Assembly (NCBI GenBank): GCA_016618085.1
Contig: JABLTG010000022.1
Location: 93,477-157,476 of the forward strand
DNA: 64,000 bases
Origin: Neovahlkampfia damariscottae
Taxonomy: Eukaryota > Heterolobosea > Selenaionea > Neovahlkampfiida > Neovahlkampfiidae
Direction: 5' to 3'
A model generated the notes under the pieces. That model saw only the letters and a list, made by a program, of their open reading frames with translations. It did not search any database and was not told where the DNA came from. Shown here in pieces: positions 6,206-51,646 of this stretch (the stretch's first letter is position 1; each line of letters opens with the position of its first letter). A program made the position numbers and the translations under genes.

Positions 6206-7798
6206 TTAATTTTTAGTATTGATTTTTTTTAAAACTTCTTTGATTGCATGTTCATAATTGAATTCAATTTTTGATGCTATTTTTTTGATCATGTATGAAA
6301 AATCAACATGTTTTGGTTCTTCAAAGAATTGTAATATATATTCAATTGAATCTTGATTTTCAAAAATTGCATCAGCTGAAGCAGCAAGATATTGAGGACG
6401 ATATTCAATTAAGATATTTTTTAATCCAAATGTTTCAGGTACTTCTGGCATTTCAACAGTATATCCATCTTTTAATTGTCTATTTGCTGATGCAATCATT
6501 CCTCTTACAATAACAATATTTAAAAATCTTTCCATTCTTGATAAATCTAAATCTCCCATGAATGATTCTTTCAATTTCATTCCAACAATAACTTTTTTTA
6601 TTTCACCAGTGATATTGTAATTTCTACCACCTGCAGGTTTTACTCCGAGTAAAGCACCACCATCAAATGAAAAATCTGCATTAAAAGCTTTAACAAAACC
6701 ATTGGCTGTTTTGACGTTCATTTCAAAGAATGATGAAAGTTTAACAAAAAGACCTTCTTCTGATATTTCAAACGTTGGAACTTTTTGAACATCAATTTTA
6801 ACTTGTAAATCATGATCAGGAAATTTTGAATATAATTCTGGAATATAATTGGATAAACTTTTTGTGTTCAATTTTAATGGTGATTCATCTGGTACATCTT
6901 CAGCATTGATTGTAGCTTTAAGCATTCCTGATTTAACAAATGTTTCAGCGCCTGATTTAAATAAATTTGGTGAAACATAAACTTGTCCAGTTCTGTTATT
7001 CAATGGTCTTGTTGGTAAAGGTGCCATTAATTGTTTTGAAAATTTTCCTTTTGGTTCATAAAATTCACCAAATACAGCTCCATGAATATATTCTTCTGTG
7101 ATGAATCCAATTTCTTTCATTCCTAAATTAAGAGCAACTTTATCACCAAATGGAATAATGTGTGGAGTATTTTGAATGATTTCATTTAAATCTTTGTCTA
7201 TAGCCTCAATTAATGCTTCTTTCATTGCTTTTTGAATTGATTCTTGAATTCTTGTTTTGAATAAACTGACCATCATGTTGATTAACCATCCAGCGAATCC
7301 ACCACCAGATACTTTGACATCAATTTTACCTAAATGAATCATAACAACTTTTGATTTAAAATGAAGTTTGTCATTCTTTTTTGTGACACTTGCTTCAAGT
7401 ACAAGATTAAATTCTTTTGATTTTGCTGTAATTTTTCCTTTAGCGCTCATTCTTGGAAAACTTCTTTGTTTGGCTTCAAACTTAACAGTTGCTCCAAAAT
7501 TTGCATTTAAAACAGCAGTTGAGATATGGTCTGGATTTTTGATACTTAATTGAAAATCTCCAGCAGATAAATCAGCTATTTTTATATCTTTCACATGATA
7601 GTCTACAGTTCCAATAACTGGTACTTTTGTATCTCCTTTGACATCTTCAATTTCTAATGATTTAAGAAAAGCAAAAAGTCCTGGTAAGGATTTTTTGATA
7701 GCATCATGCAAAGATTTTTTTAGGACAAATCCTCTTGCATTTTGTGAAGCAACAAGTGAAAGTAAAAGAGCAAAACAAATAATAAAAATTACTCTCAT
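6206..7798 (-). CDS. Secreted BPI/LBP/PLUNC-family lipid-binding protein
   Basis: About 530 residues, one exon. The ATG at 7796-7798 starts a clear signal peptide (MRVIFIICFALLLSLVAS) followed by the family's N-terminal barrel pattern. That pattern includes FVLKKSLHDAIKKSLPGLFAF, the VDYHVKDIKIADLSAGDFQL strands, a SGGGFAGWLINMMVSLFKTRIQESIQKAM helix region and IIPFGDKVAL near the centre. Two-barrel BPI proteins bind lipids or lipopolysaccharide; a role in feeding or defence against bacteria is plausible but inferred. The open frame runs back to a TTG at 7846, overlapping a promoter element, so the internal ATG is preferred. Confidence 0.83.
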   Translation of the reverse strand: MRVIFIICFALLLSLVASQNARGFVLKKSLHDAIKKSLPGLFAFLKSLEIEDVKGDTKVPVIGTVDYHVKDIKIADLSAGDFQLSIKNPDHISTAVLNANFGATVKFEAKQRSFPRMSAKGKITAKSKEFNLVLEASVTKKNDKLHFKSKVVMIHLGKIDVKVSGGGFAGWLINMMVSLFKTRIQESIQKAMKEALIEAIDKDLNEIIQNTPHIIPFGDKVALNLGMKEIGFITEEYIHGAVFGEFYEPKGKFSKQLMAPLPTRPLNNRTGQVYVSPNLFKSGAETFVKSGMLKATINAEDVPDESPLKLNTKSLSNYIPELYSKFPDHDLQVKIDVQKVPTFEISEEGLFVKLSSFFEMNVKTANGFVKAFNADFSFDGGALLGVKPAGGRNYNITGEIKKVIVGMKLKESFMGDLDLSRMERFLNIVIVRGMIASANRQLKDGYTVEMPEVPETFGLKNILIEYRPQYLAASADAIFENQDSIEYILQFFEEPKHVDFSYMIKKIASKIEFNYEHAIKEVLKKINTKN

Positions 7799-7842
7799 GT
7801 TTATCCGATAAAATCGACCAATGAATTTCTTGGAACTTTTGA

Positions 7843-7849
7843 CCAATCA
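7843..7849 (-). promoter_or_regulatory. CCAATCA element upstream of BPI-like gene
   Basis: CCAATCA read on the plus strand, 45 bp upstream of the minus-strand ATG at 7798. A second CCAAT lies nearer the start, around 7820. Confidence 0.45.
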
Positions 7850-7898: not shown

Positions 7899-10182
7899 AT
7901 GGAAATTGCAAAAAAAGAAATATTCAAAGCTCTTTTAGTAGTTTCAAAAAAACATTATGAAGCAGATATTCTTTCTCAAGAAACTGTTTTAATGAAACAA
8001 TTTTCTGAAGTTGATTTTGGTTGGATTAAAAAAAAAAAACAATTAACATTTTTCAAAAGCACATGATGAAAGTTATAAAGGACAATCTTTTTCAGTTCCA
8101 ACTTTTTTATTGATAAAACCTTTAATCAAAAAAGTTGATAAAAAAGCAATGAAAGAAAACGGTGTTAAACTTGCAATTGATCTCTCAAAGTTATTACTCG
8201 AAGAATTTAAAGATTCACAAATTGTTGAAAATATTGAACCTTCATATTCAGAAAACAATGGAGAAAAGACATATACACCTTATATCAACGTATTTTTAAA
8301 AGTTTCATTCATCGCAAATATAATTTCTGATATCAAAACTGGAGACTATTTGAAATTAATTAACAAGAAAACAGACAAGATTATGATTGAATATTCACAA
8401 CCAAATACTCATAAATTATTTCATGTTGGACATATGCGTAATGCTTCTCTTGGAAACTCATTGGTTAAATTATTTAAATTTCAAGGATATGAAGTTACAG
8501 CTGTTAATTATATTGGTGATGTTGGTACTCATATTGCAAAATGTTTATGGTACTACCTTTATCATTTTGAAAAAAAATCCAAAAAAATTGAAGAAAATAT
8601 TCCAGAAGGAAAAGGAAGAGTTGAATTTTTAGGTGAATGTTACCAAAATGCATGTATTGAATTAGATTTTTCATATTGGACAAAATTTGTATTTCCAGGT
8701 TATTTTACTGCTCAAATTACATCCATTAAAGATCATCCAAAAAATCCGAAATGGAAAGTTTTAGAAATTGATAATAAGACAACAGTAAAAAAAAAAAAAA
8801 ATTTAAAAAAAAAAAAGGTTGTATGTGGTGGTACTGGTTATCAACTCAATGATATTGTTGCATATGCTCCTGTTGGAAGTAAAAAAGGACCAAAAATTAT
8901 TACAGAAACTGATAAACAAGGTGTAATCTCACATGGATTTATTTTATCAGAAACTGAATTAAATATTTCAAAAAAGAAAGATCAAATTTATATTTTTCCA
9001 AAAGGAACTGAACCTGGTATTGAATTAACAGAATATGAAAGATTAAAAGATTGTCCAGATGTTAAATCAGTTTCAGAAGAAATGAAATTAAGAAATGGAC
9101 AAGTACGTAGTTTATTAAAGTCAATGGAAGAAAAAGAAAAAGAAATTACTGAATTATGGGAATTAACAAGAAAATGGTCAATTGAAGATTTCAAAGAAAT
9201 TTATGAATGGACAGATTCCGAATTTGATTTTGATTTTCATGAATCTGATGTTGGTGATGAAAGTAAAGAAATTATAAAACAAGCATATGATGAAGGAAAA
9301 TTAAAAAAATCTGATGGAGCTATTGGCTTAGATTGTGGAAAATTAGGATTTTGTGTTTTATTAACTTCTGATGGAACAGGATTATATGCTACAAAAGATA
9401 TTGCTTTGGCAAAAAGAAAATTTGAAGAATTCAAAATTGATAGATCCATTTATGTTGTTGATGCTGCTCAAACATTACATTTTCAACAAGTTTTCAAAGT
9501 TTTAAATCATTTAGGATTTAAACAATCATCTAAATGTTTTCATTTGGCATATGGTATTGTAACTTTACCAAATGGTAAAATGTCATCAAGAAAAGGAACT
9601 GTCATCACATTTTCACAATTGAAAGATCAATTATTGGACAATATCAACAAAGAATTTTTAGAAAAATATAAAGGTGATGAAAATTGGTCAGATCAACAAA
9701 TTAAAGATGCAGCAAGAATCATTTCTGTTGCAACCATAAAATATGGAATGTTAAAACAAGATCCTGCTAAAGATATTATCTTTTCTTTAAATGAGTGGAT
9801 TGCTAAAACTGGAAATACAGGTCCTTATTTGTTATACGCATACGCACGTATTAAATCGATTTTAAGAGAAGTTGAAAGAGATGAAACAGTTAAACCTGAT
9901 TTTTCATTATTAGTTCATGAAAAAGAAAAGAGAATTTTATTATTACTTCATCAATTTCTTACAATCACATCTGCATCATGTGAACAATACAAACCATCAA
10001 ATTTGTGTAATTATCTTTACACTTTGGCAAAATCATTTTCAAGTATGTATGAAGCAGTTTCAATTAAAAAAGCTGAATCTGAACAATTAAAAGTGACAAG
10101 ACTCGAATTCGTTTTATCAATTTCTATCATTTTGAAAACTGGTTTAAATTTATTAGGAATTGAAACCCTTGAAAGAATGTAA
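7899..10182 (+). CDS. ArgRS: Arginyl-tRNA synthetase with inserted tRNA-binding (OB-fold) domain
   Basis: Charges tRNA-Arg. Exons 7899-8019, 8060-8784 and 8818-10182 give about 736 residues. The second intron (8785-8817, 33 nt) keeps the frame either way; if retained it would add a poly-Lys stretch. Catalytic signatures are KLFHVGHMRN (HIGH), NYIGDVGTH, YATKDIALA, DAAQTLHFQQVF and GKMSSRKGTV (KMSKS), then a C-terminal anticodon-binding domain with NTGPYLLYAYARI. Between the HIGH block and the CP helix LWELTRKWSIEDF, about 110 residues (nt 8670-9040) resemble an EMAPII/PheT-B2 OB fold, e.g. VVCGGTGYQLND and IYIFPKGTEPGIELTEYE. The body resembles bacterial, including candidate-phyla, ArgRS more than animal cytosolic enzymes; that comparison is from memory. 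Confidence 0.9.
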
Positions 10183-21514: not shown

Positions 21515-23080
21515 ATGGGAAGTAGTCAATCAACAGTTGGCAGAATAAGTGGTATAAGTAGTTCTCATCATGCCAGAACCAATTCAAATCATGCTCCTTC
21601 TCCAGTCTCACTATTTGGTTCAAAATCACCTATTCAAAGTATAACAAATAAATTATCAAAAGCAAACCTTTCTTATGATATTGGTGATTTACAAGGATAT
21701 TATGAAATAGAGACTTTGACATATATAATTAAAGAATCCATTGAACATGATAAAAAGATTCAATTAACACAATTTTTAAAAACAGGTTCTTCCAACAAGG
21801 ACGTGTCAGATTTTAAGTATCAGTATAAACCTAAAATATTTATTACCGATATAAAAACATTGGATGTTGCTAAATTGATAGTTCCTTCAAAAGTAAACCC
21901 ATTTGGATTTGTACATACTTGCTTGAAAATTGGTCCTCTGGTTTGTTTTTATTTTTCAAAGTAACTTTTTTTTTAGTATTTTGAATGGAATAACTCATCT
22001 ATTATAAATGTATCTTTTTCAGTTTATGATTTAAAACAAGGTAATTCAATGTTGAAATTTGAAACTTTTTTTTCAGCAATTTTGGTAATTGATTTAGAAG
22101 ATGAAAATATTGAATCAACAAAAATCGATAAAACAGAAGATAAAATGATCAGTGATATTTCGAAAATAGTCTCTGAATGGAATGTAAATTATGAATATGA
22201 TCCATTAACAAAGAATTGTCAAAAATTTGTTGAAGCAATGATGAAAGATGGTTTTGGTTTAATAATCAAGAAATATCCAGATTATATACAAAATATATTT
22301 GATAATCTTCATAAACTTGGAAAATATAAAATTGAAAACATCTTCAAAAATACAATTTTCAAAGATGTAAAAACTCATGCAGATTTAGACTATATTTCTC
22401 ACATAAAAGAAATTCATGCTGACTTTAACACTGATAATTATGCATTGGGAAAATCACTAGACCGAGCATTTTGGTTCAATTATTTTTCTTTAATTCAATA
22501 TCAACAATTATTCAATAAAACAAAAAAAGATTTTGAAAAAGCAACAAAATTTCTTGACGTTTATGAACCAGTTCAATTGTTACAATGTTTAGATTATGTT
22601 TTAGAATTGAAATATCTTGAAGGAAAATTTCCAGAAAAAATTGAAGATTTACATTTGATAAAAATGATTTTGACTAAAGAACCTAATTCATTCATTAAAG
22701 AAGAAGAAGGTTTGAAGAGAAAATTGAAAGAAATATATGATTCTTTTATTTCTATTGCAGAAGAAAAGGATACTGATTTAATTCAACAAATTGAAATGAA
22801 TCAACCAATTCATGGAAAAGAATTCATAAGAAGATTTTATGAAGAAATGTTAACTGGTGATGCAAAGAATGAGTTTTTAAAATGTTATGAAAAAGAGAAT
22901 GGATTCCATGATATTGGATATTATCCAAAAAAACAGAAACTAAAAGCGTTGTCGGAAAAATTTAAAGAACATATTATTGTGACAACAAATATTTCAATAA
23001 TGTGGGATAAATATGATGAAGAAACATGTTATTGTAGAAATCCACATGATACACATTCAATACGAAAGAATTATAAATGA
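21515..23080 (+). CDS. N-myristoylatable protein with LRAT/PPPDE-like papain fold
   Basis: Exons 21515-21940, 21977-22040 and 22077-23080 give about 497 residues. The N-terminus MGSSQSTV fits an N-myristoylation signal. A Ser-rich leader precedes a domain with His in FGFVHTCLKIG, strand YFEWNNSSIINVSF, and Cys in YDPLTKNCQKFVEAM. The His-before-Cys order and the NC-x-F-V helix are typical of permuted papain-like folds (LRAT, PPPDE, NlpC-related), so a thiol hydrolase or acyltransferase role is plausible. The C-terminal 280 residues are helical and unrecognised. Both introns are 36 nt. Confidence 0.72.
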
Positions 23081-23395
23081 TCAAATTTGAATTTATTACA
23101 AGTTACATATTATTTTAAGATTTAGTTGGTGATTTGTTTTACAGTAAATAAAAAATCATTTACACCAAATTTCACCATTCTATTTTTTCATTTCATTAAT
23201 TTATTTTGGTTTTTACATTCAATATTTTCCTTTGTAATCGCTTAACTTAAGAGCCAGAAGCATTCAATATCAAATCATCATTTACTCCAACAGAATTAAT
23301 TGTATTCATCTTCATGGAATTTGAAAATGGTTTTATTTCCAGTATTTGAAGCAATACATATTGTCCAATCAAATAGAGTTTTTCCTAAAATCGAC

Positions 23396-26300
23396 ATGGA
23401 TTTGGAAACAGAACTATCTCACGTGAAAAATCACCCTGGAACTTTTTTAATCATCTCACCTGTAAGTTCATCTCAGGAAGTGGTGGTACAAAACACTTCT
23501 GGTACTCTTGAACAGTTTCTCTCTTTTTTTCGTGAAGATTTAAATTTAATCGGATTTTACCACGTAACAAAACTAAAACTCAACTTTTTTCAGATAAACA
23601 AAGATTTTACAGAAAAGTTTATTTTAAAAATTGATTTCACAGGTGAAAAAGTCAAAGAAGAAGATTTTTTCATTTTAGAAAGTTACTTGGACAGAAATAC
23701 AGAATTAATCAACGAAAAATTTGATGAATATCTGAATATAAAGCAATATACAACCATTGATATTTCAAAAATCAAACAACAAATCAAAGATTATCAAACA
23801 TTCAAAAATGAAACAGAAGAAGATGGTGTTTCGAATTATCACATTATTTCTCTAGAACTAAAAGAAAAATTAGATCAAATGAGTAAATTTTCAAAAAGGA
23901 AATCTTTGAAAATACTTGGTGGTCTTGATAAATCATCAAAAAGAAAATCATTAAAACTTACACAGTCACTAGAAGACAAAAGTACAAACAATGATAAATC
24001 TTCAAAAAGAAAATCATTAAAGATATTTGATACTTTGAGTTTTATGAAACCAAAAAGAAAATCATTATTTGAACATGAAGGTATTTCATCTGAAAAAAGT
24101 TTAGAAATTATTTCAGAATCTTATACTTCTGAAAAAATGTTGAATAGAGTTTCAAATACATCAGATGAAATTATTGAATTTGCAAAACAAATCAATTCAG
24201 TTGAAAATAATTTATCACCAAAAGATAAAAAAAAAGCAACATCTGAATTGTTGAAGATTATTGATTTTCATGAAAAAAATCCAAATGCATCTCCAAGAGA
24301 ACTAAATGTTAGAAAATGTTCAGTTCAATTTATTTTAAAAAAAACAAAAGAAATGAAAAATTTCGACACTTTTTTACAGCAAATTTATTCATGTTTAGTT
24401 CAAAATGATCATCCATTCATGTACTTATCATCAGAAGAAAAGAAAGAACTGGAAATGAAAGCAGATGAAACAAGAGCATGGCTTCAACAAACTCTTGATG
24501 TAAGTTATGCTATTGTAACTCAACGCTTCAATGAAATTCAAAAAATGTATGATGATTATTTGGACAAATCAAAATTCAGATCAAAAACTATTCTTGAAGT
24601 TGAAGAATTAAGAATCAAATCAAATCAAATCTCTCAAAATCTTGGTAAAGAAAATAAAGAAATCATTCAACAAAATTTCATTTTTATTGATCAATGGATC
24701 AAAAAAAATGAAAAATTTAATAAATCAAGCATGACAGAAGAATTTGTTTCAAAATTAGATGAAATATTAAAATTGATAAATTTAGGTGAAAAAAAAAAGA
24801 TCTTAGAAGAAACTTTGAAAAATTTAAAAATGAATATCGAAGATGAAGTTGTATTAGGTCAATTCATGACAAAAGAAGAAAAACAAAAGTTACTTGATTT
24901 ATTTTCAAAATTAATGATTGATGAAGATAATTTTGATTTTCAAAAACAAAAATTTGAAAATGATATTTTTCCAATATTGAACTTACCACAACAAAAATAT
25001 GCACTAGAAAAGTACTGTTATCAATTGAAAACTCTTTTATATAAAAATGATTCAGAATTTCTTTCTTTTCTTTCTGAAAAAGATATTAACGTTTTTTGTG
25101 AAACTATTGATTCAGCATTACATTGGTTGACACTTAAAGATTCAAAGAATGTTGAACTGAAGAAAAAGGAAATGTTTGAGATTGTAAATCCAATAATTTT
25201 AAAAGGAAAAACATTGATTCAAGTTTCTCGTGATATTGAAAATTTCAAGAAATTGAAAACAAAAATTGAAAAGAAAAACTTGAAAGATATCATTTTGACA
25301 AGTGAAGATGAAGAGTTTATTGAAACCAATATTAGTAAAATGTCTGGTTCAGTATTTCAACAAGATTTAAATCTCAAAGATTTAGAACAAAAAATCAATG
25401 AATATGATACACTAATTTCACCATTAATTAAAAATGCCATGGTAAGAATTGATTTAGATGATTTGAGTAATGATGCTTTGGAGTATTTGTTATTTAATGA
25501 TTCATCTTCTAAACTGACAAAATATCAAAGAAAATTGATAGAAACTGAAGTCTCTGCTTTGTTAGATTGGATTCAATATCAAAAATATCCAACAATTGAA
25601 CAAATCAATGAAAAAAGATCAAATTTTGAAGAAGTTTATTTACCACTGAAAAATAGAGCTGAAGAACATTACAAACTTGATTTATTCTTGACTTCAATAA
25701 AAGATAATATGAGTTCCAATGCTGAGTGGAAAAATTTATTACCAAAAAATGAAAAGAAAAATCTAAAGCACTTGGTGGAAGACACAATTGACTTTTTTAA
25801 TAAGAATGAAGATCCTTCGATTTTTGATATGAACAAAAAATACTTGGCATTGGAGAATATTGTTTCACCGTTATTGATTAGAATTGAAAGAACTCATCAT
25901 TTTACTGATTATTCAAATCAAATCAAAGGTATACTTGCTTCAAATTTATCAGATTTTATATCAATCAAACAAAAAAAAATGATCAATTCTTTATTGATTG
26001 AATCAATCAAATGGTGTGAAACCTTTGAAGATTTTAATGAATTGGATTATATAAATATAAAAAATAAGACAAAAAGAACAATTGATGATGCCATTGAAAC
26101 TGGAAGAATCCTACAAGAATTAAAAATTTATAGTGATTCTTTGTTGAATGATAAAAATCGTTGGGAAGAAGAACAAATCTCAAATGATTTGTTGGTGATC
26201 ATTTTACAAAATGCAAAAGATATCTCAGTGTGGATTGAAGACTGTGGTTTAGATTCAACAAAAACAGAAATCATTGAAAAAAAGAAAAACTTAGAAACAT

Positions 26301-27736
26301 CTGTTGATGAAATACTAAAAATATCAAATAAGAAATTGAATGAATTACAAATCTTGCAAAATAGAATCGAAGAGATTTTGAATTTCTTACCAACATCTGA
26401 TCTTCCAAAACCAAATCAACAAAGAATTCAAAAAATAATTTTGAATACAAGAAAATGGATTGATGAAAATGGAAAAACAGCTTCAAATCAAAAAATTATT
26501 GAACAGAGAAAAGTATTCAATTATTTGATTGAAGATGTTAAAAATGATAAAACAATTAGGACTATTGACATTATTCCAGTTGAAGAAGTTATTAAACCAA
26601 GTGTTAAATTAGTTAATGAAGCAATTATAAGAAGACAATCAAGTGGACTCCCAAGTAAGCTTGCTTCTTTAATCGATGCTCCTTTACACAAAAATCCTGA
26701 TAGAAAAATGAGTTTTTTTGAAATACGTAAAATGAGCATGATTGAAGAAAGAGTTTCTAGATCTGAAGATTTTTTGAATTTGAAAATAAAAGCTGTTGAT
26801 GATGATTCAGATAGTGACATTGAAGTTCATGGTGCTGATAATTTCATAAATGATGAAAATTCAAGATTACAAAAGAAACAACTTGTGGATTCCATTTTAA
26901 AATTTCATTATTTAGTCTCTGAAGGAAAACCGATTCAGAATATTGAAGAATTCAAAAAATTCTTCATTGATTTGAAAAATTTAGTTGTGGATGCTTCTGA
27001 CTTTCAAATTAAAGAAATTGGAATTATTGATGACAATATCAAGAAATTCCTTTTTGCATTGAATTACATGGAAGATGAAACTGATGAAATTGCAATTAAA
27101 TCTCATTTAAGTGCTTTATTCAAATCTGTTGGTCCTATTTTTATGACAACCATTCAACAAGAATTATTCAAAAAAAAATTAGAGACTGAATTGGAAATTA
27201 TCCATAAAGATTTAAAAGATTACCTTTTTGTTAATGACAGGGAAAAGGTACTAAAATTGTACTATGAAACATCAATTTGGGCAAATGATGAAAATCAAAT
27301 TGATATTAATTTAATTCACGAAAAAGAAGATCATCTTGATGATATGTGTGGAAATATTTTGAAAAATGCAAAATTAAAAAAGAAAATTGATGATTTGATC
27401 ATTCAAAAATTACAAAAACTTCAAAACTCTCGTCAAATTGTGAAGATATTTATTCAAAAATCACTAGAATTTATCAAACACTTTGATGATAGTTGCTTGA
27501 ATGAATTACCTGATAGAATAGAAGAATTGAAAAAAATGGATCAAAAACTAGGAAAAGTAGAGATTCAAGACATCAAAGAATTTGAATATTTTGTGTTAAA
27601 CTTTGAGAAGAGAAGTAAAAATGAAAAAATGAAATCAAGAAAAAAGTTAAATGAATTTTTAGATTGGATTGAAGATGAAATGGAAATATCCACTGAAGTT
27701 TTACTCGAAAAAAAGAATCAAATTGAAAAACTGTAA
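23396..27736 (+). CDS. Giant protein of tandem Hsp70-lid-like repeats
   Basis: About 1,436 residues if the frame-neutral 30-nt intron at 23564-23593 is spliced. The frame is open further upstream (ATG at 23327, TTG at 23300), but CCAATCA at 23365-23371 sits 25 bp before the ATG at 23396, the usual promoter spacing here, so I prefer that start. The first 150 residues are an unrecognised beta-rich region. Four KRKSL phosphosite-like motifs follow (nt 23895-24070). From about nt 24160 onward, some 14 units of about 72 residues resemble the Hsp70 C-terminal helical lid, e.g. LEKYCYQLKTLLYKND then TIDSALHWL and EMFEIVNPI. No ATPase domain is present. Confidence 0.75.
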   Translation: MDLETELSHVKNHPGTFLIISPVSSSQEVVVQNTSGTLEQFLSFFREDLNLIGFYHVTKLKLNFFQINKDFTEKFILKIDFTGEKVKEEDFFILESYLDRNTELINEKFDEYLNIKQYTTIDISKIKQQIKDYQTFKNETEEDGVSNYHIISLELKEKLDQMSKFSKRKSLKILGGLDKSSKRKSLKLTQSLEDKSTNNDKSSKRKSLKIFDTLSFMKPKRKSLFEHEGISSEKSLEIISESYTSEKMLNRVSNTSDEIIEFAKQINSVENNLSPKDKKKATSELLKIIDFHEKNPNASPRELNVRKCSVQFILKKTKEMKNFDTFLQQIYSCLVQNDHPFMYLSSEEKKELEMKADETRAWLQQTLDVSYAIVTQRFNEIQKMYDDYLDKSKFRSKTILEVEELRIKSNQISQNLGKENKEIIQQNFIFIDQWIKKNEKFNKSSMTEEFVSKLDEILKLINLGEKKKILEETLKNLKMNIEDEVVLGQFMTKEEKQKLLDLFSKLMIDEDNFDFQKQKFENDIFPILNLPQQKYALEKYCYQLKTLLYKNDSEFLSFLSEKDINVFCETIDSALHWLTLKDSKNVELKKKEMFEIVNPIILKGKTLIQVSRDIENFKKLKTKIEKKNLKDIILTSEDEEFIETNISKMSGSVFQQDLNLKDLEQKINEYDTLISPLIKNAMVRIDLDDLSNDALEYLLFNDSSSKLTKYQRKLIETEVSALLDWIQYQKYPTIEQINEKRSNFEEVYLPLKNRAEEHYKLDLFLTSIKDNMSSNAEWKNLLPKNEKKNLKHLVEDTIDFFNKNEDPSIFDMNKKYLALENIVSPLLIRIERTHHFTDYSNQIKGILASNLSDFISIKQKKMINSLLIESIKWCETFEDFNELDYINIKNKTKRTIDDAIETGRILQELKIYSDSLLNDKNRWEEEQISNDLLVIILQNAKDISVWIEDCGLDSTKTEIIEKKKNLETSVDEILKISNKKLNELQILQNRIEEILNFLPTSDLPKPNQQRIQKIILNTRKWIDENGKTASNQKIIEQRKVFNYLIEDVKNDKTIRTIDIIPVEEVIKPSVKLVNEAIIRRQSSGLPSKLASLIDAPLHKNPDRKMSFFEIRKMSMIEERVSRSEDFLNLKIKAVDDDSDSDIEVHGADNFINDENSRLQKKQLVDSILKFHYLVSEGKPIQNIEEFKKFFIDLKNLVVDASDFQIKEIGIIDDNIKKFLFALNYMEDETDEIAIKSHLSALFKSVGPIFMTTIQQELFKKKLETELEIIHKDLKDYLFVNDREKVLKLYYETSIWANDENQIDINLIHEKEDHLDDMCGNILKNAKLKKKIDDLIIQKLQKLQNSRQIVKIFIQKSLEFIKHFDDSCLNELPDRIEELKKMDQKLGKVEIQDIKEFEYFVLNFEKRSKNEKMKSRKKLNEFLDWIEDEMEISTEVLLEKKNQIEKL
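23890..24075 (+). repeat. Four-copy KRKSL motif array
   Basis: Protein-level repeat: SKRKSLKI, SKRKSLKL, SKRKSLKI and PKRKSLFE, spaced 15-25 residues apart. Each matches a basophilic (PKA/AGC-type) phosphorylation site, inferred from motif only. Confidence 0.7.
24160..27736 (+). repeat. About 14 tandem Hsp70-lid-like units (protein level)
   Basis: Units of 65-80 residues follow one plan: helix with L-x-x-Y/L; a charged EKK/K-x-x-x segment; a helix ending W-[LIF]; a loop; and a helix ending in P-[IL]. Clear examples end in RAWLQQ, DQWIKK, LHWLTL, LDWIQY, IKWCET, SVWIED, RKWIDE, SIWAND and LDWIED. DNA identity between units is low, so the expansion is old. Confidence 0.7.
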
Positions 27737-27806: not shown

Positions 27807-28307
27807 ATGCCAACAGAATCAAAAGAACCTCAAGACCAATACTCAACAGAAACTTTATTCAACCTTGCAGTAGCATTTGTTCAAGAATCAATGGGTAAAA
27901 GATATTACGAAGGAAATTCAAGAGAACTTACAAATGACGAAAAACTCAAAGTTTACGCTTTCGTAATTTTTTTTTTTTTTTGGACCAAACTAACATATTT
28001 TCAAGTATAAACAAGCTACTATTGGAACTTGTAAAGAAAATGGTGGTGAACGTCCTGGATTTTTTTCATTGACTGCAAAATATAAATGGTTCGTTTTTTT
28101 TTCAAGTTTACAATTTTTTAAGGGATGCATGGGATGCTTTAGGTACCTCATCATGATGATTATTTTAATTTTTAAGGTGATATGTCAAAAGAAGACGCAA
28201 TGTTGGGTTATGTAAAAACTATCAATGGATTAAGTGAACAAGAAGATAAACATTGGTTTGATTGTCCTGAACTTGATGCTCATAAAACAAAACATGGAAA
28301 AAAATAA
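27807..28307 (+). CDS. ACBP: Acyl-CoA-binding protein
   Basis: Four exons (27807-27962, 28006-28088, 28123-28142, 28177-28307) give about 129 residues. The acyl-CoA-binding bundle is clear: LFNLAVAFVQ, YKQATIGTCKENGGERPGFF, then KWDAWDALGDMSKEDAMLGY, matching the KWDAW-x-LKGMSKE core that contacts CoA. Residues about 100-129 form a short extra tail ending in basic KHGKK. Exon 3 is just 20 nt and codes for the DAWDAL segment. It buffers and transports long-chain acyl-CoA in the cytosol, which fits the nearby carnitine-type carrier. Confidence 0.92.
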
Positions 28308-28387
28308 TTAACTTTATTAAAATCTTTAACTTATATAACACTTACAATTTACTTCATCTCCAAACTTCTTGTTTCATTGGTTGAAAG

Positions 28388-31022
28388 ATGGAAAACTGGT
28401 TAGAGTACTTACTTAAACCAGAGCAACTTGATGAATTAGTATCTACTTTTTATTTAATTTAACTTCTATCAGATTAATAATTTGAATCAAAAAACTATAA
28501 ATGAACCAACACCAAGTGAAATAGTTACAACTTTTTTAGAAAAATCAATTTCTCATTCAACAAAGCCATCTAGTCATAGAAAAGAATTCTTAATATCAAC
28601 AGCGGAAAAAGTTGCTGATAAATTACATTTTTCAATTCAAGATATCCAAGAAATACCTTTGAAATATCAAAAGAATATAATTCTGGCTTTAATAAAAATA
28701 TCAAAAGAAAAACAAAAAGATATAAAGTAAAACTATATCAAGACTAACATTTAATTAAGTTATAGAGAAATTCTATACCATCATTGGATTTTAAAATGTC
28801 ATTTAAAAAAAATTTCTTTTGACGAAATTTTCATAAAAGAAGGTGAAAATTTTGAAGAAACAGCAGAAGAAATCATCAAAAAATCAGTTATTTGTTTAGA
28901 AAATGGAATCAAAAAATCAAATTATTTACCCGAAACTTTTCAATTAAAAGAAGAAAATGAAGTTGAATTTGATTTAGGAAAATACTTTTTTATTAATGAA
29001 AATTTTGAAAAAGCTAAATACTATTTATCAAAAGTAAACACAAAAGAATCAAGAAATATGTTCAATGCATGTGAATCTGTTCTTCATAAACAAAAAACAG
29101 AAATTGAAAAAATGAAAACAAAAATATTAAATAATGTATCATCAAAAGAGTTTAATCTATTACCTGGATTAAAATCAAACTCAAATGAACCTATTTTAAA
29201 TCAAAATTTGTTAAATGAATTTTTCAATTTATTGATTAAAGATAATGTACAACAAAATTTTACCTATCAAGAAAGATTCAATTTAGTACATGATTTTTAT
29301 TTATTTCAAAATGTTCAAATTCAAATTTTAGCTTTAAATTTCATAAAATTATTATTTCTTCATTCAAAAGATAATAGTTTTGTTCCTTATTTTTATCAAG
29401 AAAATTTTATTAAAAATTTTATTAAATTCTCTCAAAAGACATTTGATTTATTAAAGAAAAATGAAATGGAAGAAAAGTTTGATTTTATCAAAGACAATAT
29501 AATAGAGAATATATTAAAAATGTTAAATTTTAAAAATGATTCAAATTTATGGAACTATTTGAAAGAAAATGGAAAAAGTTTTTTAATGAATGAATTGGTA
29601 AAAACATTATTTTTTAAACATTCTATTTTTAGGATCATTCATCCAATAAGAAGAGAAAATATGAAGATATTTCATTGGATGAACCATATGAGTTGTTAAA
29701 TGATGAATTATTAAATCCAAAGAAATTTAAAATACAAGATGTTAGTTATTTAATCAAGAAATCATTTGACTTTTTGGTTAAAAAAGAATTTAAACAATCT
29801 TTGAAATTATTAAATTTTGTGAAACAATCACCTGTTAAATCAAAACAAATATCAATTGATATCAAATATATATCTTTATTAAATGAATTAAATCAATTAA
29901 AAAATAAAGAAAATTTGAAAAATTTAATGAAATTAATTGAAGAAAAGGAGTATTGTGAAATTCCAATTTTAATTGAAATTTTTAATTTTTTGATAAATCA
30001 AAATGAAATTAGTTTTATCATTCAATATTTTGAAAAATTGAAACAAGAGAATATTTCAGTACAAAGTAAAATAAATGATAAATTTTCTAAACCAAAATTT
30101 AGTCAATTTGATAAGTTCATTCTTTGTAGATTTTACTAAATTGAATGGTAAATTATTAAAATTTATTAAATTTTAAATAGCTAATGATATTGATTCATGG
30201 TATAAATTTCTCTTTAAAATTTGTAAAAAAGAAAATGATGATTTTGTATCTAAAATGAATGATGAATTTTTTTTTATTTTAATTTCAAATGAAAATTATT
30301 CAGAAATGATAAAATTTTCATCTTTTCTTGGATATAGTTTATATTCACTTTTGATCTTTCAAAAAGATTCAATTGAAAATTTCACAAATTTTAAGAATTT
30401 AGCATCTTTTACATTTAATGAAAATTCATTAATTGCTCCATCACCAAATTTAAGTTGGGTTTCATCTGATGATATTAATGAAGGAAAGAAGAATTTAATG
30501 TTTATGTTGAAAGAGACTTTATTGAAATTGAATAATTTAGTTTTGGTTAATTCAATTAAAAATCTTTCAAAAGAACAAATTTCAATTTTACTTTTTTCTT
30601 TAGGTGATTTATTCTTTTTTGAAAATGATTTTAAATCATGTTTAAAATTTTATTTGAAATCAATCAATTTTTTGAAAATTGAAAATTTAAAACAGTATGA
30701 TTTAATTTTGAAAAGAGTTTATCATTGTTTGAATGCATTGAATTTATACACTGCTGGAGCTGTTGTTTATCAATTTTTGAATTTAAACTATGATCAAAAT
30801 TTATTAATGAATTTGAAAAGTCTTGATAGAATTTGGTTACCTTATTTTTATGATTTGAATTATTTGGAAATATTTTTGTATTTTGAGTCTCAAAAAGATT
30901 TAATTTTGAAATTAATGTCAAGAGTTGAAATTAATAAAAATAATTCAAATTCAAAATATAAAGAATATTTAAAAAATTTGAAAGATAAATTCTTTAAAAG
31001 ATTAGAAATTTATTTGAATTAA
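28388..31022 (+). CDS. INTS8: Integrator complex subunit 8
   Basis: Six exons (28388-28438, 28473-28726, 28760-29597, 29633-30065, 30103-30147, 30181-31022) give about 820 residues; animal INTS8 is near 995. The N-terminus MENWLEYLLKPEQLDELI matches the INTS8 opening W-x-E-F-L-L block. TAEKVADKLHFSIQDIQEIP matches its second block, and the C-terminal TPR segment LGDLFFFENDFKSCLKFYLK the repeat near its end. INTS8 is in the PP2A-binding shoulder of Integrator, which attenuates RNA polymerase II and processes snRNA ends. Recognition is by pattern from memory; similarity is low but collinear. The start follows ATTGGTTGAAAG by 1 bp. Confidence 0.7.
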
Positions 31023-45621: not shown

Positions 45622-48600
45622 ATGTCTTCAGTAAAAAACTACTGTCGTTTTCGTCCCTTTTCTGATGATGAAGATTCATCAACTCCAAATATGGAGTATA
45701 AATCCGAGAAACAATTAACTCTGCCTGTAAATATTATCCATTTTTTTTAAGTTTTTTTTTAGAAAGCATCGGCTAATTACTCTTTTGACAAAGTTTTCAA
45801 AGAAACCTCAACTCAAGAGGAACTTTACAACGAATTTCTTCCTAATATTAATGGTAAGTTTTATTTCAAAAATTAAAACAGACTTTCAGTAATTTTGGAA
45901 GGAAAAAATCTTTCAGTTTTGTGCTTTGGTACAACAAATTCTGGAGCGACATATACTGCATTTGGTGGTACTCTAGAGTGGAATGTATGTTATAAATTTT
46001 TAATTCTTTTTTTTTTTAGGAAGATCCTGAAGAAGGAATGTTTCCAAGACTTGTCAGAAGTCTTTTTGATAGGGTTTTAGAAATTGGAGAAGCAGATGAT
46101 TCAGTTGAATTTCAAATCAAAATTGCTTGTTTTGAAGCTGATGAAGAAGGAGAAAAATTAAACGATATTATGTCTCGTAAGTTTCTAATAGTTTTTTTTC
46201 TAAAAATAAAAAAGTTGAACCAAAAACGATAAATGTGAGCATAAAGAATGGAAAACCACATTTAGATGATGTTTTAGAAGAATTTGTTGAAAGTGACGCT
46301 GAAATATTTCAAATTATTGCAGACTGTCTCCAAAATAAACAATTTGATGGATGTACTTTTGCCAGTGTAACTTTACAACAAACTGTACTTGAAACTGATG
46401 AAAAGAAAGAAGGAACATTGTTAATTGGTGATGTAAAAGATTGTAATGATGCTCTTCTTGAAATTATTGATGACTTAAATCATAACAAAGTAAAAATACA
46501 AAAATATGTTTAACCTTTAATTTATTAGCCATATAAGGAAAACAATCATTTAAGTGCTGCTCTTTATTCATGTTTTTTTGATAATCGTACTACAATTGCC
46601 ATTTCTTGTTGTCAACCTGGTGAAAGTGATATCAACTCAGTTAAAGAAACTCTTGATATTTCTGATATGTTTAAAGATGTTAAAATTGAAACAAGTGTTG
46701 TAACTGCTACAAATACACCAACACCATCCACTGGAGGAAGTGGTGTTGATTCTGCTGCACTTGTTGAACTTCAAAATGAATTAGTTCAATTAAAACAAGT
46801 CAATGAAGATTTGAAAAAACAAGCAGAAGAATTCAAACAAGCTTTTGAACAAGAAAAAAAAGTGAACGAAACAAATTCAAAAGAATCAACGGAATTGGTG
46901 AAAAAGATTCAAGCTGCTGAAACTAAATTGACAAAGGTAAAGAAACTTCAAAAAATGAAAGCAGATACACTTATTTCAAAATTAGATGCATTAAAGTCAC
47001 GTTCACAAACTTTACAACAACAACAAAAACAACTTTTAGATGCTTCAAATAATATTAAAAGTGAAATTTCTTTTAAAGATATTTCAAAACAAATTGTTGA
47101 TAAAATTCAAAGTATTTCATCAAATCAAGAATCAAATTTCACTTCAAAATTATCAAAATTACAAGAAGAAAAAGATCAATTGGAAGGAAAAATTACAGAA
47201 ATTGAAAATAAATTACAAAAAGAAAGTGATGATAACAAAGCATTTGAAAAACAAATTCAAACTTTGAAAAAAGAAATTAAAGATAAAACTGAAAAGATTT
47301 CAGTGACTGAAAGTGAATTGTCGTCAGCAAAAGAAACATTAGAAGTTGAAAAAGTTCACACAGAATCACAAAAAGAAATCATTGCAGAAAAAGAAGAAAA
47401 AATAGATTCTTTAATGAATGATTTACAAGAAAAAGAAACAGTATATAAAAAAGATTTACAAGAAGCAAAACAAAAATTGATAAAAGAACAAAGTGCACTT
47501 TCAACACTTAATTTAACTTTAATTTCTGAAAAATCACAACTTGATGTAACAAGAAAATTATTAGTTGATAAAGATACAAAAATTAAAACTTTGACAACAG
47601 ATATGATTTCAAAACAATCAGAAATTAAAAAACTTAAAGATCAAATTGAAAGTAGAAATGCAGAATTAGAATCAGTTGTTTCAAAAGGTAGTGAAAGTGA
47701 AGGTCAAAATGCTGCTTTGCAACAAAAAATTTCTGATGCTGAATCAAAAGTTGAAAAATTAACACAAGAAGTTTCAAATTTAAAAACAAAATTGATCAAT
47801 GAAAAAGAACGTCAAAATGAAGAAATAAAACAAGTTCAAGAATCAAATAAAGATAAAATTGAAGAATATGAATCAAAAGTTGAAAATTTAAAAAAAGAAA
47901 TTGAAGATATTACAGAAGAGAATTCACAATTATCATCATCTATTAAGAAATTGAAACAAGATTTTGCAAAAGAACAAAGTAAACTTGAAAAAGATAAAGA
48001 AACAGCAGAAAAAGAAACAAAAGAAACAAAAAGTTTACTTGATGAACAAATCAAAAATGTAAAATCAGCTGAAAAAAAGATTTCAAAAAAAGAAGTTGAA
48101 ATTTCAACTTTAGGAGAAGAAAAGAAAATTGCAGAAAGAAAATTGAATAATTTACAAGAAGAACATGATAAAATTAAAGAAGAAATTTCTAAAAAAGTAC
48201 AAGAATTTAAGCAAACACAATATGATTTAGAAAATCAATTAAACTCAGAAAAAGATAATTTAGCAAAAGAATTACAAATTCAACAACAAATAAAGACTGA
48301 ATTAAGTTCAAAAGAAAAAGAAGTGAAACGTTTAAATACCAAATTATCAACAATGATTGAAGAACAAGGAAATTTAGAAACTAAATTTAATGAAAAAATG
48401 ACTGAACTTGAAAAAGAGAAATATAAAATTATCGATTTTGAAAGACAAATACAAATATCAACAGATGAAATTATTCAATACAAAGAACAAGTAAATGATT
48501 TAAAAAATCAAATTACGAAATTAAATAAAGATCAAAAGGATCAAAAAGATGAAATTACTGGTAGTCGTTTACAAATTGAAGAATTGAATTCAAGTTTAGA

Positions 48601-51600
48601 ACAACTTCAACAAAGAGCAGAATCATCAGAAAAATCAATTTCAGAACAAAGAGATAAACAAAAAGAATTAAAAGAATCTTTAGATTTTTCACAAAAAGAG
48701 AATGAATCCTTAATTTTATTAAAAAATCAAAATGAAAATAAAATTAATCAATTAACTGAAAATATTCAAAAATTTGAAAAAATTGAAATTAATTTACAAG
48801 AAAAGATAAATGAATTAAATTCAAAAATAAATGAATTTGAACAAAATATTATATCAAAAGAACAAAAAATTAAACAATTAACAAATTTAGTTGAATCATC
48901 TTCAAATGAATCAAGTACAAAAAATGATGAAGTTTCAAATTTATTATCAAAAATTGATACATTAAATAATGATATTTCAAATGAAAAGCTTGAACAATTA
49001 AAATTAAAAAATGAACATTCAAAAATTATTGAAGAAATAAAAAAAGAAAATTCAAATTTTGTTAAAATGAATTCAGAAAAAACATTTGAAATTACTGAAT
49101 TAAAGAATCAAATTACAACATTAAAACAAACTATTGAAGAAAATGATGAAGAAATTTCAGCATCAAAAGATGAAATGCATTCAATTGAAGGTGTTAAAAA
49201 ACAATTAGAAAGAGATTTAGAAAATCTAAATTTAGATAATGAATTACTTCAAAATCGTTTAAAAGAATTAGATCATTTAAGAATAAAAGAATCAGAAGAA
49301 TCAGAAGAATTGATTAAAAAATTATCCGATTCTGAAAAAGAATTTGATTTGATAAATTCAGAATTGAAAAAACAAAATGAAAAAGTATCTCAATTACAAA
49401 GTGAAAAAGAAAAATCTCAAAAAAGTTTGAATGAATTAAATGATAAATATTCAAAATTATCAACTGAATTAAAACAAAAAGAAGAAGAATTATTTTCAAT
49501 TTCGTCCAATAATAAAGAATTGAACGAAAAATATTTGAAAAAAGAAGATGATTTGTTGATATTAACCAATGAAATCAAAGAATTAAAGAATGAAAATAAA
49601 TCAATGAAAGAGAAAATATTTGAATTAGAATCAAATTTAGAATCATCAAAATTAAAATTAGAAGAACAATTATCAAAATATTCAAATGATATCCAATTAA
49701 ATGAATCATCAAAAATAGATTTTGAGAATGAAAAGAATGAGTTGATTTCTGAAAATGAAGAAAAATTAAAAAAACAAAATGAAGAATTTTCAACAAAAAT
49801 AACCAAAATATCAGAAGAAAATGAAAATAAAATTGAAGAAATGAAGTCAAAAATGGAAAAGAAAATTAATGATCTTGAAGAAGAAATTAAATTTCAAGAA
49901 CAAGATTCAAAAAAGAAATTATTAAAATCAGAAAAACAATTAGATAAGATTAAAGTTGAATTGAAATCAAAAGAAGAACAATTTGAAGTTAAAATATCAG
50001 AATTAAAAAGAAAAATTGAACAACAACAAGAAGCATTAACATCTCAAGAACCTGATTTAGATCAAACATCAGAATATTTAGATTTGATTTCTCAATTAGA
50101 AAATGAGAAATTAATATTAACTGCTTCTTCAAGAGATGTTCAAATTCAACTTCAATCTGAAATTGATTCATTAAAACAACAATTATTAGATGAACAATCT
50201 ACTATTGAAGATTTAAATTCAACAATTTCTTCTTCAAAAAATAAAATTACATTAATGGAATCATTGGTTATCAAACAAAAATCAGAAATTAAATTACAAA
50301 AAGGACTTGTTGAGAATAACTCAAAATTAGTTCAAGAATTACGTGAGAAATTATCAGTTGCAGAATTAAAAGCAGGTTCTGTTAATGATGAAATGATTGA
50401 AAATAATGAAGTAATGAAAAAGAAATTAGAAGAATCAGAACAAGATGTTGTTTCTTTAAAAAGTGAAGTATCAAAATTAAAATTAGAAAAGAATAAATTA
50501 AAAGATACAGAAAAATTAAATCAATCAAAATCTAAAATACAATTGGATGAAAAAATGAATGAAATTGAAGAATTAAAGAAATCTCATTCAAGTGAAATTG
50601 AAAAATTAAAAAAAGATTTTGAAAATGTAATGTTGAAATTATCACAAAAAGATGAAGAAATGAATAATCAAAAAATGAAATATGAAAATGAAATTGAAGA
50701 AGCAAGAAATACTATAAATGAAAATCATCCATTATTAGAATCATCAAAATTAACAATTGCTAAATTAGAATTAAAAATACAAAAAGATGAAATTGAAATG
50801 AAATCAAAAGAAATTGAAAATTTAAAAATTGTTACACAAATTCGTCAAGAAAAAACAGATTTAGAAAAACAACATGAAGAAGAAATAAAAAAATTAAAAG
50901 AACAAGAAGTTTCATCTGATAAAGTAGTTGAATTAGAATCTGAATTAAAAGAATTACGTGAAATGATAATGTCTTCAATTGAAAAAAGAAAACAACAAAA
51001 AGAAAAAATGGAAAAAGATTATTTTGCAAAAAGAGAAATTGTTTCTTGGAATGGAAGAAGAGTTGAATCAAAATTACCAACTACTATTCCTTATGATAAA
51101 AAATTACAACAAGAAATTATTGAACACAATATTGAAATTAATGTTGAAACAACAAATGTGAGAGCATCAAAAGATTTAACACCAAAATCTCAATCCACTT
51201 CAACATTAAATACTGGAAGTACAGAAAAGAAAACAAGAGGTGGTTCAATACTTGGTTTAAGTTTCAATAATAAAAGAACACTTAAAAAATCAGACTCAGA
51301 AAATGGTCTTCTCTCTGGTTATTTATCAATGGAAGGTGATAAATTTAAAACTTGGAAAAAGAGATGGTTTAAATTACATGATCATTATCTGTCCTATTTT
51401 GCAAATGCAGGTGAAGGAAAACCAATTAAAGGAATTAATCTAAAACATGGAAGAGTTGAATCATGTCCAAATAAGACAAGTTCATCAAGAAAATATCCAT
51501 TCCAAGTTATTGTTGGAAAGAAAACTTATTATTTAAATGCGGAAACAAAAAAAGAAATGGATTCTTGGATTTCAAATATTAGTAAATTAATCAATACTGC

Positions 51601-51646
51601 AAATAAAGATCCATCAATCAAAGAAGGTGTTGATCTTACTAATTAA
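45622..51646 (+). CDS. Degenerate kinesin motor - giant coiled coil - PH domain protein
   Basis: Six exons (45622-45726, 45763-45853, 45890-45984, 46020-46176, 46215-46489, 46529-51646) give about 1,946 residues. The first 330 follow kinesin order: VKNYCRFRPF, YSFDKVFKETSTQEELYNEF, CFGTTNSGATYTAFGG at the P-loop position, then IPYKENNHLSAALYSCF and ETLDISDMFKDVK at the end of the motor. The P-loop Lys is Ala, and the SSRSH and DLAGSE switch motifs are missing, so ATPase activity is unlikely. Residues about 360-1,790 are an almost continuous coiled coil. A PH domain closes the protein: LLSGYLSMEGDKFKTWKKRW through SWISNISKL. Confidence 0.88.

Follow-up and report, generated by a model that had tools for sequence, protein, structure and literature searches.

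A window of 64,000 nucleotides from the genome of the heterolobosean Neovahlkampfia damariscottae (contig JABLTG010000022.1, positions 93,477 to 157,476), which is the whole stretch of DNA analysed here, contains a gene for a protein that resembles a long row of lids from the chaperone Hsp70. The gene is an intron-free single frame on the forward strand (23327-27736) that runs from an ATG at 23327 to a TAA stop codon at 27734-27736, is open already from a TTG at 23300, and encodes 1469 amino acids. Residues are counted from the ATG, and counting from the TTG adds 9. The GC contents at the first, second and third codon positions are 37, 21 and 19%, as in a coding frame, and the GC content of the gene is 25.5%. 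Judged from its sequence, the protein is an array of 14 lid-like units of about 73 amino acids each, arranged as 11 + 3 with a break.

The first block consists of 11 consecutive units (residues 279-1074, nucleotides 24161-26548), namely U1 at 24161-24361 (residues 279-345), U2 at 24362-24583 (346-419), U3 at 24584-24802 (420-492), U4 at 24803-25003 (493-559), U5, the most Hsp70-like of them, at 25004-25234 (560-636), U6 at 25235-25462 (637-712), U7 at 25463-25675 (713-783), U8 at 25676-25900 (784-858), U9 at 25901-26119 (859-931), U10 at 26120-26335 (932-1003) and U11 at 26336-26548 (1004-1074). The second block (residues 1287-1469, nucleotides 27185-27733) holds three units, which in our numbering are U15 at 27185-27385 (1287-1353), the weak U16 at 27386-27571 (1354-1415) and U17 at 27572-27733 (1416-1469), the last unit of the protein, after which no EEVD tail follows. 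The blocks are separated by about 212 residues (1075-1286, nucleotides 26549-27184) without a recognisable lid, and we therefore describe the array as 11 + 3. A preliminary description of this DNA had proposed a repeated helical plan in the frame, with about 14 units and coordinates (24160 to 27736) that imply an unbroken array; the plan and the number of units were borne out, whereas the array is not unbroken, because residues 1075-1286 cannot be recognised as lids.

The units were first cut by eye, and the segmentation was then tested with an independent profile made from seven eukaryote-type Hsp70 lids of other organisms, with nothing from the present protein. The matches to this profile start at residues 276, 347, 419, 493, 560, 636, 710, 785, 858, 931 and 1006, and the ten spacings between these 11 consecutive starts are 67-76 amino acids. 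The longest regular chain in 200 shuffles was four (in one shuffle), with three in five shuffles and at most two in the rest. Among five other open reading frames (ORFs) of the window, two gave chains of three and four and three gave a chain of one, as did the reversed protein. A stray match starts at residue 142, upstream of the array, and the second block is irregular in the scan, with spacings of 46 and 83. Furthermore, when the units are aligned, nine of the 11 tryptophans in the protein share a single column, corresponding to the W of the lid's WL. W or F occupies this column in 13 of the 14 units, whereas U4 has a gap. No second lid array was found elsewhere in the six-frame translation of the window, where the best other stretch reached E 0.06.

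We consider the homology of the units to the Hsp70 lid to be highly probable. The whole frame was searched without segmentation with phmmer against 177,635 distinct PDB sequences, reporting up to E 10, and all five matches were to Hsp70 lids, at three places in the protein. The best of these (E 0.0024) was the BiP lid, which aligned without gaps over 100 residues to residues 757-856 (766-865 from the TTG), taking in the long lid helix of BiP and crossing the junction of U7 and U8, and the lid of 1ud0 matched residues 492-573 (501-582 from the TTG) at U4 with E 0.31. U5 alone gave ten matches in PDB, nine of which were to the lid region of Hsp70s (best E 0.027). A profile that drew on the 14 units alone gave 35 matches, with Hsp70 lids at ranks 1-15 (E 1.5e-8 to 4.2e-6), followed by GatC at rank 16 (E 0.0067), another Hsp70 at rank 17 (E 0.0073), and then calcium-channel and other sequences.

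Likewise, the comparison with hhalign of the unit profile with the seven eukaryote-type lids gave a probability of 97.1%. It was still 96.4% when U5 was left out and 95.4% when U5, U7 and U8 were left out, which shows that the signal does not depend on the best unit. The controls reached at most 0.65% (best of 100 column permutations) and 0.11% (reversed units). Against mostly DnaK-type lids the probability fell to 64%. Because eukaryote-type lids score high and DnaK-type lids low, the array most likely descends from a eukaryote-type lid. The core of U5 (LEKYCYQLKTLLYKND...EMFEIVNPI, residues 560-625), already singled out in the preliminary description for its likeness to the Hsp70 tail, scored 26.4 bits against the seven-lid profile, for which the best control domain scored 5.7 bits in 200 shuffles of the protein and 5.1 bits in the five other ORFs. 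A leave-one-out test, which used a rough realignment, compared each unit with 300 shuffles and 300 pieces of other ORFs in the window. Nine of the 14 units scored above all 300 shuffles, U7 was equalled by one shuffle and U15 by four, five ORF pieces scored as high as U1, and eight units exceeded all shuffles and all pieces.

The predicted structures point in the same direction. U5 was modelled with AlphaFold2 using the other 13 units as the sole alignment, and the model (pLDDT 87.6, pTM 0.72) is a three-helix bundle of the lid type, with helices at residues 561-572, 576-580, 584-602 and 606-635. A Foldseek search of PDB with this model placed Hsp70 lids at ranks 1-9 of the 84 matches up to E 10, the best being 4po2_A (TM 0.75 by query, 1.8 Å over 71 columns, probability 1.00), and cyclophilin at rank 10 (TM 0.50). 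Lids of Sse1 and DnaK recur lower among the best 50 of these 84 rows, as do the FAT domains of FAK and Pyk2 (TM 0.34-0.46). In a two-unit model of U7 and U8 (pLDDT 85.0, pTM 0.74), helix D of the first unit and helix B of the second are one continuous helix of 39 residues (757-795, nucleotides 25595-25711), and its alignment with the long lid helix of BiP is gap-free. Since the gap-free BiP alignment spans the junction of U7 and U8, the shared helix has support from sequence alone. Ranks 1-37 of the 93 Foldseek matches to the two-unit model, of which the best 50 were examined, are Hsp70-family chains by title and cover 61-112 columns; chain 7n6g_6K was counted among them by its name in the unit-profile search. 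The isolated lid 3lof_A superposes on the model with TM 0.88 by target length and 1.5 Å. Thus, each unit is predicted to fold as a lid bundle, and neighbouring units are predicted to share a helix at one junction.

Several observations weigh against this interpretation. The mean pairwise identity between units is 16%, and Pfam named the Hsp70 family for none of the 14 single units, which are too diverged. Profiles dominated by DnaK-type lids gave scores close to noise, with 8.2 bits for the core against a shuffle maximum of 6.7 and, for a longer profile, 6.7 bits against 7.6; the whole-sequence scores were negative. Taken singly, only U5 (26.4 bits), U7 (11.9), U8 (11.5) and, by a small margin, U4 (6.5) score above the 5.7 bits that the best shuffle reached with the seven-lid profile; the remaining units have weak scores, and their case is carried by the regular spacing. 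In the leave-one-out test, U4, U5 and U16 were not distinct from the controls, with 35, 173 and 13 of the 300 shuffles and 41, 64 and 24 of the 300 ORF pieces scoring as high, so that even the most Hsp70-like unit fails when measured against its sisters. All Foldseek E-values are above 0.001 for both models, and the alignment behind the two-unit model has six rows, of which the one for U5-U6 is misaligned at the junction. AlphaFold2 may also have leaned on remembered Hsp70 structures. Finally, the gene model is predicted from the reading frame alone.

Of the features that define the Hsp70 family, the protein has the alpha-helical lid bundle, seen at the domain level in the profile match (E 1.5e-8) and the predicted fold (TM 0.75), and lacks the ATPase, the beta-sandwich and the EEVD motif. 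There was no Pfam match up to E 10 to the actin-like ATPase of Hsp70 (PF00012) in the whole frame, and none to Hsp70 in the other proteins and pieces of the window that were scanned. A profile of 68 sequences of the peptide-binding beta-sandwich (SBD-beta) gave no match on the protein, which ends in QIEKL and not in the EEVD of the cytosolic eukaryotic Hsp70s. The lack of a nucleotide-binding domain noted in the preliminary description is thus upheld for the frame by Pfam, and its suggestion of a chaperone-derived protein is well supported by the likeness to eukaryote-type lids: the profile searches of the units matched Hsp70 lids and not spectrin or TPR, and structure prediction, applied to a single unit and to one pair, gave a unit that can be superposed on the Hsp70 lid. 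The helix shared by neighbouring units in the model is a correction to that description.

The array is preceded by an N-terminal region (residues 1-170, nucleotides 23327-23836) that resembles coactosin and the ADF-H domain by eye only. The hhalign probability against ADF-H was 0.17, lower than for several of 60 shuffles, between 31 and 346 of 1000 shuffles, according to the settings, did as well as the region itself in the pairwise score against coactosin/ADF-H, and Pfam gave no ADF match in the region. A Pfam match to Hemocyanin_M (E 0.0046) was below the cut-off and is not believed, and a degenerate Hsp70 beta-sandwich was ruled out for this region by the lack of a match with the 68-sequence profile. 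A search of PDB with residues 1-274 gave three matches (best E 0.22). Between this region and U1 lies a basic linker (residues 171-278, nucleotides 23837-24160) with 19.4% serine and 18.5% lysine, in which KRKSL occurs four times, at residues 190, 205, 227 and 243. A second linker (residues 1075-1180, nucleotides 26549-26866) contains an acidic DDDSDSD stretch, RRQS once (1102) and RKMS twice (1126 and 1134). The KRKSL, RRQS and RKMS motifs resemble sites of the basophilic-kinase type. The rest of the break between the two blocks (residues 1181-1286, nucleotides 26867-27184) is helical by eye, matches neither the lid profile nor Pfam, and may represent decayed units.

The genes around the array are of eukaryotic types, with Pfam matches in the window to CDC5-type Myb_Cef, HEC/Ndc80, RGS, ribosomal S7e and INTS8. 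On the forward strand upstream, two frames at 21515-23080 were joined by eye into one gene with a 36-nucleotide intron near 21941-21976; the gene has a weak match to the PPPDE peptidases (Peptidase_C97, E 0.0061, below the cut-off), and its stop codon lies 246 bases upstream of the ATG of the lid array. Directly downstream, a gene at 27807-28308 (forward strand) is acyl-CoA-binding-like by eye, with three introns of about 35-45 nucleotides, and its first exon alone gave no Pfam match. It is followed on the same strand by the frames of Integrator subunit 8 at 28390-31022, the extent and short introns of which were set by eye; 30255-31019 matches TPR_INTS8 (E 6.5e-10), and 29058-29696 gave no match. 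Further away, the window encodes a protein of 1659 amino acids at 46667-51646 (forward strand) that looks like a coiled coil by eye, carries a PH domain at its C-terminus (E 4.7e-18) and has no lid-like score, and a protein of the LBP/BPI/CETP family at 6206-7846 (reverse strand) with both domains (E 6.3e-19 and 1.6e-11). An arginyl-tRNA synthetase frame at 8110-10182 (forward strand) has an additional weak tRNA_bind match at residues 200-304, on the N-terminal side of the catalytic domain (E 0.00026, below the cut-off).

The nearest known relatives of the units are the lids of eukaryote-type Hsp70s, such as BiP (5e85), HSPA1A (2lmg and 4po2) and the Hsp70 of Caenorhabditis elegans (2p32). With these they share the three-helix plan, the L-x-x-Y start, the W that ends helix C, a core of about 65-70 amino acids, and the NPI at the end of helix D, which is fully kept in U5 only. 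Unlike Hsp70, the protein has a tandem array of 14 units, no ATPase, beta-sandwich or EEVD, and a helix D that enters the next unit. The lid of the Hsp110 protein Sse1 also superposes on the U5 model (of the four Sse1 chains listed, three have TM 0.73-0.74 by query and one has 0.65), but Hsp110 has a single lid on a full chaperone. In HSPA13/STCH a piece of Hsp70 is used alone, with the ATPase kept and the peptide-binding part lost, and the present protein would show the opposite pattern of loss. No relatives were found with back-translated peptides in viral contigs or prokaryote genome contigs, nor with tblastn in plasmids or phages. The peptide scan is weak for diverged relatives: a 100-residue BiP lid used as query also found nothing, and with a 211-residue piece of Hsc70 as a control 599 of 600 candidates were relatives. 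These negative results cover prokaryote, phage, plasmid and viral collections only, so novelty is not proven. No lid array was described among the matches listed in a literature search that covered titles and the beginnings of abstracts, and we know of no such array.

We hypothesize, with somewhat more confidence than doubt, that the protein is an elongated, ATP-independent scaffold or spacer built from duplicated Hsp70 lids. It would have arisen long ago, when the C-terminal lid (SBD-alpha) of a eukaryote-type Hsp70, separate from the ATPase and the beta-sandwich, was duplicated in tandem to give an elongated protein in which each unit of about 73 amino acids corresponds to the three-helix bundle of the lid. 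Helix D would continue into helix B of the next unit and replace the first half of the long helix B of Hsp70, and we therefore propose that the array forms a spectrin-like rod. The lids would offer many binding faces for partners, and the RKxS-type sites in the two linkers would let kinases tune attachments at the N-terminal and C-terminal sides. The rod shape beyond two units, the scaffold role and the phosphoregulation are inferred, the scaffold role from the anatomy of the protein. More tentatively, the helix-sharing rod of lids could possibly be a new class of repeat protein in this protist, serving as a multivalent platform, tuned by kinases, for the physical organisation of chaperone or cytoskeletal partners.

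We also considered that the lids might mimic the lid of Hsp70 and recruit or titrate its partners (Hsp70, CHIP-like ligases, ribosome sites), as a hub of the chaperone network that acts as a co-chaperone or decoy. Hsp70 lids do bind partners, PDB entry 4kbq being by its title a complex of the CHIP TPR domain with the Hsc70 lid-tail, and some units keep eukaryote-type motifs. A docking function of lids is also known from yeast Ssb, the lid of which is reported to be required for ribosome binding (PMC5123055). Yet the protein ends in QIEKL without an EEVD tail, and there is no chaperone among the neighbouring frames scanned by Pfam. Moreover, common binding surfaces seem unlikely, since the units average 16% identity, and we regard the hub as unlikely. 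Even less probable, in our view, is an ATP-independent holdase, in which hydrophobic grooves exposed on the lid bundles would bind unfolded proteins. The chaperone origin and the many units would suit such a role, but Hsp70 binds peptides in the beta-sandwich and not in the lid bundle, and no beta-sandwich match was obtained here.

The units could also be convergent three-helix bundles, of the spectrin kind or of some other coiled-coil kind, whose likeness to Hsp70 is a coincidence of helix composition. Taken singly, they consist of highly charged helices and share little sequence identity, and the continuous helix between adjoining units in the model, like the rod it would form, is a feature of spectrin, although the prediction concerns one junction. 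The units differ from spectrin in length and sequence, with a period of 67-76 amino acids against about 106 in the spectrin repeat. No spectrin appeared in the Pfam results for the frame and the units, among the unit-profile matches listed, or among the best 50 Foldseek rows of 84 and of 93. With Hsp70 lids at the top of the sequence searches, at most 5.1 bits for the lid profile in the five other ORFs, and reversed and permuted controls that fail, we consider convergence very improbable.

Our findings suggest that a rod-like scaffold evolved from a part of a chaperone. Hsp70 belongs to the most conserved proteins, and the role known for the lid is that of a switch part in an ATP-driven machine. 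If the scaffold hypothesis is true, the lid would be an autonomous and evolvable module, comparable to the units of spectrin and TPR proteins, and could serve as a template for helical-repeat design. Binding by lid surfaces freed from the chaperone cycle would then become testable.

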